Positions 948 through 5,471 of a stretch of DNA of 53,993 bases are shown piece by piece (position 1 is the stretch's first letter; every line of letters begins with the position of its first letter). The DNA comes from a bacterium (GTDB taxonomy: Bacteria; Bdellovibrionota; Bacteriovoracia; Bacteriovoracales; Bacteriovoracaceae). The stretch covers positions 1 to 53,993 of the forward strand of contig JAUHVL010000021.1 of the NCBI GenBank assembly GCA_030425045.1, given 5' to 3'. The position numbers and the translations under genes are program-made. A model generated the notes under the pieces. That model saw nothing but the letters and a program-made list of their open reading frames with translations, was not told the origin of the DNA and searched no databases.

Positions 948-2057
948 TTACTGCGTAGTGTCATAAATTCTTTCAAAATAGGGAGTCGTTCCCTCACAAC
1001 CAATTATCTTAATTATTTCAGATACTTGCTTATTTTTAAGGAAGATAATCGTATCGAGAGAAGAGCATACAAGTTGAAGGACATGTTCATACTGTAGTCC
1101 TTTTTGATTAGCATATATTTGAAACAAAAATGCAAGACGAGAAATACAATCGATGGCCGAGTTAGCATGAAGGCTTGTCATCATCCCCTTGTGACCTGAA
1201 TTTCCAGACAGTAAAAAGGGGACGACTTCGTTACCTCGGATTTCTCCAACTAAAATTCTATCAGGCCTCATTCTTAGAGAATACTGGCAATAGTTCTTCA
1301 TGGAGTTTTGAGTAGTAGGTTTACTGATAAAAGATGTTTGCTCTTCTCTTGATAAGATAAGTTCATGGGTATCTTCAATGGTGATAATATGCTCATGTGG
1401 TGGAATTAAATTAATTAATGACCTTAAAAAGCTAGTTTTTCCTGATCCTGTTGCTCCACATACGGCAATATTGAAATTATTTAAAATACTTTTATGAAGA
1501 AATTGATTTAATTCATCACTATTATGAAAGCTTTTAAGACAAAAAGAATCTGATGTAATCTTTCTAAAAAAGACTTTGGATTGTTTTTTTGCATTTGTTG
1601 AAAAGTGGCAAAGAGAGACTCTGAATGTCGTATTAAATAATTCTGTTTGAAAGCTTACAAAGGGTTTTGAATTATTCCACTCTTGACCATTTTTTTGAGC
1701 GAGAATTTCTAGTGAACTTTGTAGATCTTCTTGTGAAATATTGTTTAACTTATCAAATATTCGCTCGTCAGTATCGATTTGAACTTTTTGATTTGAATGA
1801 ATGATAATTTCTTGTAAGTTTTTTCGTGTTATGAAACCTTTTAAAAACATATGTTGATAGATATTTTCAAACCATTCTTTAGATGTATTCAAAACGGGGA
1901 AATCGCTAGGTAGAGATAAATGTGAAAGTGTTTCTGTAAATATTTGCTCAAAACTTAAATTTGTTTTTTTCTTTAACTCCTCTAGAACATTTTTTTTAAA
2001 AAGAGTTATGAATTTTTTTTCATAACCGGATAAATCAAATTGACCATAGTAGTTCAT
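948..2057 (-). CDS. CpaF/TadA-like secretion ATPase of the Tad pilus
   Basis: This is a VirB11/CpaF-type cytoplasmic ATPase that powers Flp pilus assembly. Around residues 200-207 lies the Walker A motif GATGSGKT, followed by the Asp-box ITIEDTHEL, the Walker B region RILVGEIRG near residue 265, and the His-box region MMTSLHANSAIDCISRL. The N-terminal ~130 residues are poorly conserved helical sequence. At 369 aa it is shorter than typical TadA/CpaF (about 420-480). The start ATG follows a strong GGAGGT and overlaps the secretin stop by 4 nt, so the two are translationally coupled. The family assignment is secure; the Tad branch is inferred from the neighbouring Flp pilin and secretin. Confidence 0.9.
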   Translation of the reverse strand: MNYYGQFDLSGYEKKFITLFKKNVLEELKKKTNLSFEQIFTETLSHLSLPSDFPVLNTSKEWFENIYQHMFLKGFITRKNLQEIIIHSNQKVQIDTDERIFDKLNNISQEDLQSSLEILAQKNGQEWNNSKPFVSFQTELFNTTFRVSLCHFSTNAKKQSKVFFRKITSDSFCLKSFHNSDELNQFLHKSILNNFNIAVCGATGSGKTSFLRSLINLIPPHEHIITIEDTHELILSREEQTSFISKPTTQNSMKNYCQYSLRMRPDRILVGEIRGNEVVPFLLSGNSGHKGMMTSLHANSAIDCISRLAFLFQIYANQKGLQYEHVLQLVCSSLDTIIFLKNKQVSEIIKIIGCEGTTPYFERIYDTTQ

Positions 2058-3526
2058 AAGAGTACCTCCTCAATGACAAGAAACCCTAGTATTTTCTTAT
2101 GAACAGCATGACCTGAAGTGGAGGAAAAAATTTTACCAAGAATTGGAATTGATGAAAGATAAGGAAGTTTCGATTCTTTGTTGCCTGAAGTTTGAAAAAA
2201 GATGTCAAATAATTTGAGAGAGTGTCCAAGTTTAATCAAGCTAGAGGATTGCTCATAATTCCCACTTATCGATTGTCCTTCTGTAGGGGAAGTCAGCCTT
2301 GTATCAAAATTTAATAAAATTAATTCTCCTTGCGGTTTTATAACGACTTTTACTTTTAATCCAGCAAACTTCCACTGAGTATTGACAACTTGATCACTAT
2401 TGATGGCATTATAAGGTATTTCTGATCCAATCTTCATTTCTGTTGGATGATTAAAACGAATGACACTTTCTGGTTTTGCAAGAGTTGAAACTTTATACTC
2501 ATGATTATTTATCAAAAAACTATTTTTTTTCAAAATTGAAGTCCACTTATCATCAAAAAATTCTGATAGCTGACCACTCACTTTATCTAATCCAAGATTC
2601 AAATCATTGCCACTAGTATTTTCAATTTGAATTATGTGCATCTTCATTTTAAAGGTTCTATTTTTATGTATTTGAAGTGGTATAAAAGTTATAAAATATG
2701 AATTTTCTAAAAAAATTTTACTTTCTTTTTGAAGTGACTGTGTCTTATCGAAGTAACAGACAATTTTTATATTTTTAAAATTACAATTAAGTTGATCATT
2801 TTCTGACTTGAAGGCATGCTCATAGATTTCTATTAAAATTTCTTTTCTCAACGATGGAGAAAGTTTTAGGCCTTTGATTCTAATAAAGTGATCATTTTGT
2901 TTGATAACTTTTACAAAATCTTTGTAATGAGAAATATCATGTAATTCTCCTGAGAGTTCATAAGAGTTGAGATTATTTTTAACTTTAATGTTAAGTTTAG
3001 AAAAAAAGCTCTCAAGTTCCTTTTTCTTTAAAATTGAATTTTTAGACATGATATTGAAGGTGTACTTCTCGGGAGAGTTTTTGTCGGCCCACCAGATAAA
3101 GATATCGCTATAACCAATTTTATTTGCTTTAACTAGCAGTGCGTTATTTTTGATCAATTTAGACTTAATGACCTCCTTGTTCCCGATGGTATAACTCCTA
3201 ATCTTTTTACCTTTAATTTCGAACACTTGGCCTTTTCCTAGAAAGATAATCTTATTTTCATCTTTGTTTGCCCTCGTTTGAGTCGAATAAAGAAGTGAAA
3301 TAAGAATCGATATTTTGACATAATTAGCAATCTTGGTTAGATTCTTGAGTCTGATTTGATTATAAGTTAAGGAAAATATTATGGTTTCAAGAACAAGAGT
3401 TACTCGTAATCGTAGAGCAAACAAGAAAGTAAAAATGGGTAAGAGAAGAAAGGCCCAAAACCAGAACAAGGGAACTACTCCTAAGTTTGCGATCCACCCG
3501 GATAAGTAAGAAGTAATTTTCAGCAT
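2054..3526 (-). CDS. CpaC/RcpA-like secretin with an unusual hydrophobic N-terminus
   Basis: This is the outer-membrane secretin channel of the Tad pilus. Residues ~95-165 resemble the pilus-formation N-terminal domain (IFLGKGQVFEIKGKKIRSY). The C-terminal third carries secretin sequence, including SPTEGQSISGNYE and the end motif LPYLSSIPILGKIFSS before a final beta strand. Odd feature: CpaC-type secretins normally begin with one cleavable signal peptide. Here the frame starts with a long hydrophobic stretch (residues ~14-58), then a basic linker and a second hydrophobic stretch (~70-82) that looks like the usual signal peptide. The ATG at 3526 has a good AAGGAT Shine-Dalgarno, so the long form looks intended. 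It overlaps the preceding gene by 1 nt. Confidence 0.82.
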   Translation of the reverse strand: MLKITSYLSGWIANLGVVPLFWFWAFLLLPIFTFLFALRLRVTLVLETIIFSLTYNQIRLKNLTKIANYVKISILISLLYSTQTRANKDENKIIFLGKGQVFEIKGKKIRSYTIGNKEVIKSKLIKNNALLVKANKIGYSDIFIWWADKNSPEKYTFNIMSKNSILKKKELESFFSKLNIKVKNNLNSYELSGELHDISHYKDFVKVIKQNDHFIRIKGLKLSPSLRKEILIEIYEHAFKSENDQLNCNFKNIKIVCYFDKTQSLQKESKIFLENSYFITFIPLQIHKNRTFKMKMHIIQIENTSGNDLNLGLDKVSGQLSEFFDDKWTSILKKNSFLINNHEYKVSTLAKPESVIRFNHPTEMKIGSEIPYNAINSDQVVNTQWKFAGLKVKVVIKPQGELILLNFDTRLTSPTEGQSISGNYEQSSSLIKLGHSLKLFDIFFQTSGNKESKLPYLSSIPILGKIFSSTSGHAVHKKILGFLVIEEVLL

Positions 3527-3852
3527 TAGCTATCCTTTAATAAATGAAGATCAATTATTTTTTTAATTGATCTTCTGTATAGTTCTCTATTGGTATAAAA
3601 AACTCTAACGTTTTTCTTTTCAACACAAATTCCTATAACAATCTTTCTATCCCTTAATGAACAAATCCTATCTTGAGTATGTAAGACACTAATAAAACCT
3701 TTTGGAATACCGAGCTGGTTTTCTAAAGTTTTATTTAATTCTTTAATCCTTTCACCGTTAGATTGGTTATTGATTTGAATTTGAATAATTTCTCGAGCTA
3801 GAAGATGTTGCTCTATTACGAGAGTCAGGATCAAGCTAAAAACTAATTTCAC
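3526..3852 (-). CDS. Small exported protein of the pilus operon, unknown function
   Basis: This 108-aa protein starts at GTG (3850-3852), preceded by AAGGA at a spacing of 6 nt. Residues 1-19 form a signal peptide (MKLVFSLILTLVIEQHLLA). The mature part is about 89 residues, basic at the C-terminus, with two cysteines (around DRICSLRD and IGICVEKK) that could form a periplasmic disulfide. It sits between the CpaB-like gene and the secretin, overlapping both neighbours by short stretches, so it is in the same operon. By position it could be a pilotin or accessory protein for the secretin, but no motif shows this. Confidence 0.7.
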   Translation of the reverse strand: MKLVFSLILTLVIEQHLLAREIIQIQINNQSNGERIKELNKTLENQLGIPKGFISVLHTQDRICSLRDRKIVIGICVEKKNVRVFYTNRELYRRSIKKIIDLHLLKDS

Positions 3853-4333
3853 GGTTAATTCCTTTTGTTGAAGGTACCTTATTTGTTCTTGGGATTATCT
3901 TGAGTTGAGATTTGCTATTGAGAATTTTATGAATTTCTTCTTTATGTATTTCTACTTTCCAAGGGCCATTTTCGTTAAGTGCTTTTTGTTTCGCTTTTGG
4001 TAAAAGAAATGCTTTTTGAATGATGAGCTTGTCGTGGTTAAGAATAGAGATTTTTGATTCATCTTCAGAAAGAGGGACTAATAATTTAGCGTCTATATTT
4101 AAAATAACATGATGTAATTTTATTTTACTCGTTAGTGAGTTGTTCTTTGTCTCATTGTCAGAATTAAGAATTAACCAAACAAAAAAGTTTGAAATGATAA
4201 GAAGGATGAAAAACCTACGTCTCTCTTTTTTAATAACAAATTTTTCTAGCTCCGCAGGAGAAACCCAGTTGTTTTTACTTGATTCTTTTCCATTCTGTTT
4301 TAAAAAAGTTAATTTTTTTGTTAATTCTTTCAT
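3836..4333 (-). CDS. Single-pass membrane protein, possibly CpaB/RcpC-like
   Basis: The 165-aa product has a basic cytoplasmic N-terminus of ~40 residues, one transmembrane helix (about 42-57, FFILLIISNFFVWLIL) and a periplasmic domain of ~105 residues. In Tad clusters the gene beside the secretin is usually CpaB/RcpC. The periplasmic part has paired short strands (HVILNIDAKLLVPL, KVEIHKEEIHKILN) that could be a small SAF-like domain. The match is weak, and the protein is shorter than CpaB (~250-300 aa). No clear Shine-Dalgarno precedes the ATG. Its 5' end overlaps the prepilin gene, suggesting coupling. Confidence 0.6.
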   Translation of the reverse strand: MKELTKKLTFLKQNGKESSKNNWVSPAELEKFVIKKERRRFFILLIISNFFVWLILNSDNETKNNSLTSKIKLHHVILNIDAKLLVPLSEDESKISILNHDKLIIQKAFLLPKAKQKALNENGPWKVEIHKEEIHKILNSKSQLKIIPRTNKVPSTKGINREISF

Positions 4334-4538
4334 GAGATTTATTCAATTGTTTAAAGTAAAGAGACATCAGAGTTATAAAAATTCCGCTCCATATAAGAAA
4401 TTCGATAAGGGCAAAGCCTTTTTGTTTAAATCTTTTATTGTTACTTTTAAATTCGAAATACCGTTGCCCGTCGCTCTTAGTTTTGCTTGAGTAAAGCCGA
4501 GGGATTTTCTTTTTGTATCGATAAGTATGATTTTCCAT
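4275..4538 (-). CDS. Type IV prepilin-like protein encoded in an overlapping frame
   Basis: The 87-aa product has a prepilin peptidase site, KQKG followed by FALIEFLIW, with the conserved Glu at +5 and a hydrophobic helix to about residue 60, then a basic tail. The leader before the cleavage Gly is ~41 residues, long for a pilin. The start is supported by AAGGAT placed 5 nt before the ATG. The first 166 nt lie out of frame inside the 3' end of the TadE/G-like gene (4373-4963), and its 3' end overlaps the next gene. It is likely a minor pilin or pseudopilin of the Tad system. No in-frame ATG/GTG/TTG lies close to the cleavage site to give a shorter leader. Confidence 0.7.
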   Translation of the reverse strand: MENHTYRYKKKIPRLYSSKTKSDGQRYFEFKSNNKRFKQKGFALIEFLIWSGIFITLMSLYFKQLNKSHERINKKINFFKTEWKRIK

Positions 4539-4963
4539 TCTTTATCCTTGAGTTGTGCAATGTTGAGAACTCGTTCGAAATTTGGTTTATAGGGGAGGTT
4601 CATAACTTGGATGGCCTTTTCATTTTTATTACAATATTTACTTTTTAGAATTTTATGAGAGGCCTTTAGGTAAGAAGCTCTTTGAATATTTTTTGCTAGC
4701 TCTATCATGGTCTTACCCGCTGCCGCTGTCTTGGGATTTAAAAGTAAGCTATTACCAATACCGATTTGAATATTGTTAAGTTCAACATTCTTGACAAGTT
4801 TTTTATGAGTAATAATCAGTTCTTTAAAACAAAGATAATGAAGACTCTTTCGAACAATAGTTTTTTCAACAGTAACGATCGTTTGATAATTTAAAAAGAT
4901 AATTGAAACGACAATAAGTATAAATACTAATGCTGTAATAGAGACTGAACCTTGATTATTCAC
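4373..4963 (-). CDS. TadE/TadG-like pilus protein
   Basis: The 196-aa protein begins MNNQGSVSITALVFILIVVS, the pattern of TadE/TadG-like pseudopilins: a short polar leader, Gly, a small polar residue and then a single hydrophobic helix. The rest is an extracytoplasmic domain of about 165 residues rich in Lys and Asn. The start is GTG with AGAGGA about 10 nt upstream, inside the end of the preceding gene (8-nt overlap). The assignment rests on the N-terminal pattern and the operon. The lack of Glu at +5 argues against a classical pilin. Confidence 0.65.
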   Translation of the reverse strand: MNNQGSVSITALVFILIVVSIIFLNYQTIVTVEKTIVRKSLHYLCFKELIITHKKLVKNVELNNIQIGIGNSLLLNPKTAAAGKTMIELAKNIQRASYLKASHKILKSKYCNKNEKAIQVMNLPYKPNFERVLNIAQLKDKEWKIILIDTKRKSLGFTQAKLRATGNGISNLKVTIKDLNKKALPLSNFLYGAEFL

Positions 4964-5252
4964 TTTTAGGTATTCCTCTTTGAAGCTGAAAAGTATTTTT
5001 CTTAGATCTACTAAAAAATGAGCTAAGGTTTTTTACAGAAAAAGAGTGTCGATTATCTTTTTTATGATATGTGGTAATCAAACCACAGTTCTTGTAGATA
5101 AATCGATAATCTTTTTCATCAATCAGGCCATTGATCATGAGTTGGAAATTTTTGTTTCGATTGTTTAATTGGCAATTATTTATGTGTAAAACTTCAATCA
5201 TAAAGAACGATAGGGTGAGTAATAAAAAATTTACGGTTATGTACTGAATCAT
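4956..5252 (-). CDS. Small membrane-anchored protein of the pilus operon
   Basis: A 98-aa protein with an N-terminal hydrophobic helix (residues 3-20) that could be an uncleaved anchor or signal peptide, followed by a basic, Asn-rich extracytoplasmic part with two Cys (NNCQLN, KNCGLI). It overlaps the Flp pilin stop by 4 nt and the TadE/G-like start by 8 nt, so it belongs to the operon. Gene order and topology fit another TadE/F-like pseudopilin that has lost recognisable sequence. The function is unknown. Confidence 0.6.
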   Translation of the reverse strand: MIQYITVNFLLLTLSFFMIEVLHINNCQLNNRNKNFQLMINGLIDEKDYRFIYKNCGLITTYHKKDNRHSFSVKNLSSFFSRSKKNTFQLQRGIPKSE

Positions 5253-5416
5253 GGAATTTGAATTTTTTCAGTTATGGTTCGATTCATATTTGAGATCTTT
5301 GTTTTGAGTCTCTTGCCAAAGCTGCTTACAGTTGTGAGGCAAAATATTCCAATTAAGCTGGTCAGGATTATGTACTCTAAAAGAGATTGGCCTTTGTTGT
5401 TTTTTAATTGCTTCAT
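5249..5416 (-). CDS. flp: Flp-type major pilin
   Basis: This short prepilin reads MKQLKNNKG followed by QSLLEYIILTSLIGIF, the signature of Flp pilins: a cleavage Gly, Glu at +5 followed by Tyr, and a hydrophobic helix in a ~55-aa protein. The start chosen is the second in-frame ATG (5414-5416), because GGAGG lies 8 nt before it; the upstream ATG at 5431 overlaps that site. It is the first gene of the minus-strand pilus operon. The prepilin peptidase (TadV/CpaA type) and the platform proteins TadB/C are not in this window, so the cluster continues to the left or is split. Confidence 0.85.
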   Translation of the reverse strand: MKQLKNNKGQSLLEYIILTSLIGIFCLTTVSSFGKRLKTKISNMNRTITEKIQIP

Positions 5417-5471
5417 ATTGATTTCCTCCATAGTCAGTGTTTATGGGGTTATGAATTTTTGAGAGTATTTT

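Follow-up and report, generated by a model that had tools for sequence, protein, structure and literature searches.

A conserved prepilin start nested out of frame within the preceding gene of a Tad-like operon in the Bacteriovoracaceae

In a Tad-like operon of the Bacteriovoracaceae, a prepilin gene was found to start out of frame inside the gene before it, and we read the overlap as genuine dual coding, in which a minor Tad-like (type 4c) prepilin would be separately initiated within its host gene (probability roughly 0.85). The case is made from sequence, through the anatomy of the two genes, their conservation, and the selection apparent on the ATG, Shine-Dalgarno (SD) sequence and open frame of the prepilin. 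The window, i.e. the whole stretch of DNA analyzed (53,993 nt of contig JAUHVL010000021.1), carries on its minus strand a prepilin ORF of 87 aa (4275-4538), assigned by ORF and motif and conserved in relatives. Its first 166 nt (4373-4538), exactly as proposed in the first-pass annotation, also encode part of the host gene in the TadE position. The ATG (4538-4536) follows AAGGAT (4549-4544), which lies within the host gene at a spacing of 5 nt, again as annotated, and is made up of the TG of the host Trp143 codon TGG (4535-4537) and the A preceding it, so that the prepilin is read in the −1 frame relative to the host. In the window, a single codon lies between this ATG and the preceding stop in the prepilin frame, and no further in-frame ATG, GTG or TTG could be found between it and the cleavage site. 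The predicted product comprises a 41-residue leader (4538-4416), the previously noted FALIE motif directly after G41 (a predicted cleavage site), with the mature part beginning at F42 (position 4415), and then a hydrophobic stretch.

Against Pfam N_methyl, the window prepilin scored under the 21.2 cut-off (13.5 bits, E 0.056), and 2 of 34 prepilin members matched at E values up to 0.1. In the 34-row prepilin alignment (the window and 33 of the 37 nested named loci), G41 is present in at least 90% of rows; Glu5 is not universal, and members of genus g25 have Pro, Ser or Asn at that position. A Trp of the prepilin is invariant in the same alignment, and in several relatives the next gene, p165, starts Met-Asn-Gly out of prepilin Glu-Trp-Asn codons (4275-4333 is the overlap in the window).

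The operon, all on the minus strand, reads in order a Flp-like major pilin candidate (5249-5431, 60 aa; Pfam Flp_Fap E 0.041, below the cut-off), p98 (4956-5252, a small protein with a hydrophobic N terminus and no Pfam match), the TadE-position host, the prepilin, p165 (3836-4333, overlapping the prepilin 3' end by 59 nt), p108 (3526-3852, with a 17-nt overlap with p165), a CpaC/RcpA-type secretin ORF (2054-3526; Pfam Secretin E 5e-10, true start perhaps further downstream) and a CpaF/TadA-type ATPase (948-2057; Pfam T2SSE E 1.4e-32). Successive junctions overlap by 4, 8, 166, 59, 17, 1 and 4 nt. A Flp-like pilin, ATPase and secretin, which together mark a Tad operon, are all in the window, and orthologues of the Flp pilin and secretin were seen in 18 of 18 loci compared. 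A TadV-type peptidase and TadB/TadC are represented in the same genome by two Peptidase_A24 (PF01478) and six PF00482 matches, all on contigs other than that of the operon. One contig region (G000:C72, 35824-43007) holds a T2SSF gene and a short Peptidase_A24 gene within 7.2 kb and is perhaps another Tad or secretion cluster. Two further features of the operon were observed. On the plus strand, 3381-3509 forms a basic 42-aa ORF with a good SD and no Pfam match, antisense to the first ~50 secretin codons; the secretin-strand motif N[LF]GVVP over this ORF is conserved in the family, a pattern suggestive of a genuine small gene here, with the secretin starting further downstream. At 3836-3852, the p165 C terminus (...REISF in the window, YEIxF in many relatives) is read in the other frame as the p108 start, GTG/ATG AAA TTx, and its conservation may partly reflect that start.

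The host gene (4373-4963, minus strand, GTG start) encodes a pilin-like protein of 196 aa. It had been described as TadE/G-like, which holds for its position and pilin-like anatomy but not for Pfam, where the window protein matched no family, TadE and TadG included; among the 41 members of the host alignment (the window together with 35 of the 37 named loci that are nested, plus 5 of 11 others), one matched TadF at E 0.029 and none TadE. The AlphaFold2 model (mean pLDDT 89.3) predicts a long N-terminal helix (residues 5-73) and a three-stranded C-terminal sheet, whose strands (142-149, 156-165 and 171-179) fall within the overlap, and a low-confidence tail (181-196). A PDB fold search with this model gave no match at E up to 0.001, and with VIA-align the best Z score was 6.6, to designed helical proteins.

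To find the arrangement in other genomes, protein searches with prepilin and host separately were carried out against 59 genomes, in which the matches overlap in several genera. The prepilin alone gave weak matches (best relative E 1.4e-5), so the secretin was used as the search anchor. A search with a secretin alignment recovered the operon in 115 of 129 family genomes and on 68 named contigs, mostly from Bacteriovoracaceae and Halobacteriovorax. Altogether 108 regions, the window included, were examined, and 71 of these, from 28 genera and not counting G129, whose frame is broken, have a nested start 112-190 nt into the host gene (median 145). One is a bin named Bacteriovorax stolpii, with an overlap of 142 nt. 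In all 71 regions the start sits at a host Trp codon, NNA TGG. That both frames plausibly code, as the first-pass annotation had it, is borne out by this retention of nested start, SD and open leader frame.

Relatives lacking these features were a minority, and were sorted by eye. Overlaps of at most 65 nt occur in 22 genomes from nine genera (g3, g4, g5, g15, g20, g24, g31, g36 and g61), mostly with short or absent leaders, so the nested arrangement is dispensable. G023 combines a 52-residue leader with a 14-nt overlap; long leaders thus do not require the overlap. In the remaining 15 regions the frame is broken, genes are absent, or the arrangement is hard to assign. G012 keeps the nested ATG, but its leader frame is interrupted by a stop after 12 codons and offers no alternative canonical start, and G129 keeps it with an apparent frameshift that breaks the leader frame. 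G011 has an 88-nt overlap and an 11-residue leader, no canonical prepilin start was present in G109, and the host ORF beside the prepilin is not intact in G095. The host gene was not found in G025 or G104, nor either gene in G001, G008, G032, G105, G106 or G107, and G134 offers 441 bases of sequence, too little to sort. In G102 (L182), a single ORF joins a host-like N terminus to a prepilin-like segment (NRG^FAALE), as if host and prepilin had been fused by deletion. In genus g33 (L114, L120 and L136), G008 and G001, neither a host nor a prepilin ORF was found in the interval from Flp to the genes preceding the secretin, and some family members may do without both.

For tests of selection, the host protein was held fixed and synonymous codons were drawn by local usage. 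In the window genome alone, neither the nested ATG (P = 0.78, given the host Glu before Trp) nor the SD (p = 0.23) was significant; their weight comes from relatives. Among genomes with a single candidate, the ATG was present in 61 of 63 where 40.1 were expected from codon usage (P 6e-12); as species are related, such genome-level P values are too small, and those from one genome per genus (25 of 26 vs. 15.9 expected, P 5e-6) are the better guide. On the same footing, the SD was 2.84 kcal/mol stronger than the null (Wilcoxon P 3.7e-7, n = 26), while RNA folding around the start was only weakly relaxed (P 0.07). The residue preceding the host Trp at nested starts is K, E, Q, R, T, L, I, S or P. 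The nested ATG cannot be the sole reason for Trp143, since g24 and G035 keep the Trp although their start is not nested; no Trp lies in the tested range in those genomes of g3, g5 and g61 that were examined.

The open frame was the third feature followed. Chance left the nested frame open in a mean fraction of 0.022 of shuffles, and in 0.1% for the window genome alone; the third frame has five stops across the window overlap and is open in 1 of 72 genomes. Because the choice of gene pairs had partly relied on an ORF that runs across the host stop, the test was repeated on every host ORF with A-TGG at a distance of 95-200 nt from its stop. Of the 74 genomes concerned, 70, among them the broken G129, have a nested frame that is open to the host stop, a count with a possible mild bias to open frames, as 90 of the 97 host ORFs had been picked for a −1-frame ORF of at least 45 codons spanning the stop. 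Of 42 control −1-frame ATGs elsewhere in the same host genes, 2 were followed by 40 open codons. At conserved host residues, the same codon was used opposite the mature part at rates of 0.631 and 0.734, against 0.387 and 0.462 upstream. Conservation in both frames, raised as a check at first pass, was evident for ATG, SD and open frame but not as synonymous constraint on the leader alone, which was not significant in g25 (0.436 vs. 0.387, 95% interval −0.004 to 0.103, leaving out G123 and G129) or g15 (0.472 vs. 0.462, −0.054 to 0.090). These results indicate selection in both frames, on the start, the SD, the open frame and the mature part.

The leader had been called unusually long for a prepilin peptidase substrate. 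At 41 residues it is long, but this is a rule of the family rather than an oddity of this gene: lengths run from 30 to 60 (median 40, n = 70, without G016 and G129); all 13 g15 genomes have 45 residues, and 19 of the 22 g25 genomes have 37. Net charge has a median of +5 and is zero or negative in 5 of 70. Compared with stop-free synonymous nulls, leaders are more basic (genus-mean z +1.01) and more hydrophilic (−0.96), and the mature part coded within the overlap is more hydrophobic (+1.70). Within two well-sampled genera, identity over the leader DNA was 0.22 and 0.27 for the leader and 0.39 and 0.47 for the host, and mature-part identity within the overlap was 0.43 and 0.56; host identity was 0.39-0.48 in the overlap vs. 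0.48-0.50 upstream. Leader sequence drifts, then, while length (30-60), hydrophilicity and positive charge persist. Together with the codon data, these identities indicate that the leader region is constrained by the host frame, while the prepilin needs of it only length, charge and freedom from stops. AlphaFold2 gave pLDDT values of 51-64 for the leader and 95-99 for the helix of the prepilin, with residues 35-86 predicted as a single helix.

In a tree built from 66 secretin rows, of which 57 have an assigned state (44 long, 13 short), the overlap form changes at least five times; well-supported branches alone force two of these changes, the deep branching being weakly settled. The wide distribution of the long form, against the scattered occurrence of the short one, fits an old long form that was lost repeatedly. 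Extending the search from family to class brought up no genome beyond those 129, so no outgroup operon was obtained and gain cannot be told from loss. The dual coding may be real and yet neutral in both origin and maintenance, a nearer start having been lost and an upstream one captured to leave a functionless long leader, a reading to which we give somewhat less than an even chance. The interchange of long and short forms on this tree and the drift of leader sequence both suit it, and a shift of start is a described route to long overlaps (PMC3887535). On the other hand, leader length, charge and hydrophilicity are held across 28 genera, and the overlaps share the phase of the 4-nt ATGA type, which according to the same source tends to be retained as short overlaps.

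It is highly unlikely that the true start lies near the cleavage site (at a non-canonical codon, or at internal starts in relatives) and that the openness upstream is accidental. More than one canonical start is available in 32 of 70 nested frames (38 have a single one before the cleavage site), extra in-frame starts show no depletion within the leader (27 vs. 30.7 expected), and leader conservation is low, as such starts would allow; but the window has no nearer canonical start, and ATG, SD and open frame exceed the synonymous null far upstream of the site. Programmed −1 frameshifting from host to a host-prepilin fusion is most improbable, for although the nested frame is the −1 frame, A-rich runs precede many starts and an X_XXY_YYZ heptamer in host phase lies from −45 to +15 of the start in 20 of 72 genomes (AAATTTC in the window, 45 nt upstream), the other 52 have no such heptamer, the open frame begins near the ATG (median 9 codons upstream), and frameshifting needs neither the SD nor the ATG that exceed the null.

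Under separate initiation, the preferred reading, we infer translation, processing and assembly of the prepilin as follows. Ribosomes would initiate at its own binding site and ATG, in the −1 frame inside the host coding sequence, to produce a basic, hydrophilic and probably disordered cytoplasmic leader. A Peptidase_A24 prepilin peptidase would cleave this off after G41 to yield a minor pilin or pseudopilin with a single helix and ~46 residues. As nothing beyond length, charge and an open frame is asked of the leader, it can overlie the coding of the host C-terminal β-sheet; past the cleavage site, the prepilin membrane helix would be coded opposite the predicted disordered host tail. Reinitiation works over tens of nucleotides, and the host stop lies 112-190 nt beyond the prepilin start, so that ribosomes terminating on the host should not reinitiate at this start. 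Termination-reinitiation coupling as at 4-nt overlaps is thus unlikely in the nested form, and the prepilin would have to be initiated afresh, competing with ribosomes that are translating the host; lineages with the 4-nt overlap would use coupling. A regulatory role can be imagined, in which ribosomes finishing the host pass over and block the prepilin start, setting the two minor pilins in inverse proportion, and the long basic leader serves as a required, sequence-independent cytoplasmic tail that times processing. We consider this combination doubtful; if true, selection would force the β-sheet of one pilin and the leader of the other onto the same DNA, family-wide.

Overlapping genes and prepilins are each already known kinds; no conserved long nested prepilin start was found in the open-access literature searched. 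Prodigal is described as allowing same-strand overlaps of at most 60 bp (PMC2848648), a limit under which both genes with the right start could not be reported in any of the 71 cases; automatic annotation would overlook or truncate such prepilins. As the Tad locus is reported to be required for Bdellovibrio predation (PMC5430801), a missed subunit may matter for a process that is already being studied. The long and short forms in related genera offer a natural experiment on the purpose of prepilin leaders.

Bdellovibrio-like Tad (type 4c) operons are described as having a syntenic TAD locus that carries a Flp pilin together with secretin and ATPase, as in the window, and Bacteriovorax/Halobacteriovorax with three TAD-associated flp-type genes and TadV (PMC5430801). 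The text of that paper on TAD loci describes no nested start, unlike the situation here, and gives a usual distance of 5-20 residues between Flp motif and initiator Met, compared with 30-60 here. As in class III signal peptide prepilins, a hydrophilic leader ends in Gly before a hydrophobic helix, often with Glu5; leaders of the Streptococcus sanguinis pilins are given as 8-18 residues (PMC10191384, PMC6497953), whereas the present ones are longer and coded inside another gene. Unidirectional overlaps with the downstream start inside the upstream gene, in the ATGA-overlap phase seen here, are likewise described, with 4 nt the commonest length and selection modelled against overlaps above 60 bp (PMC3887535); those reported here span 112-190 nt and are found in 28 genera.
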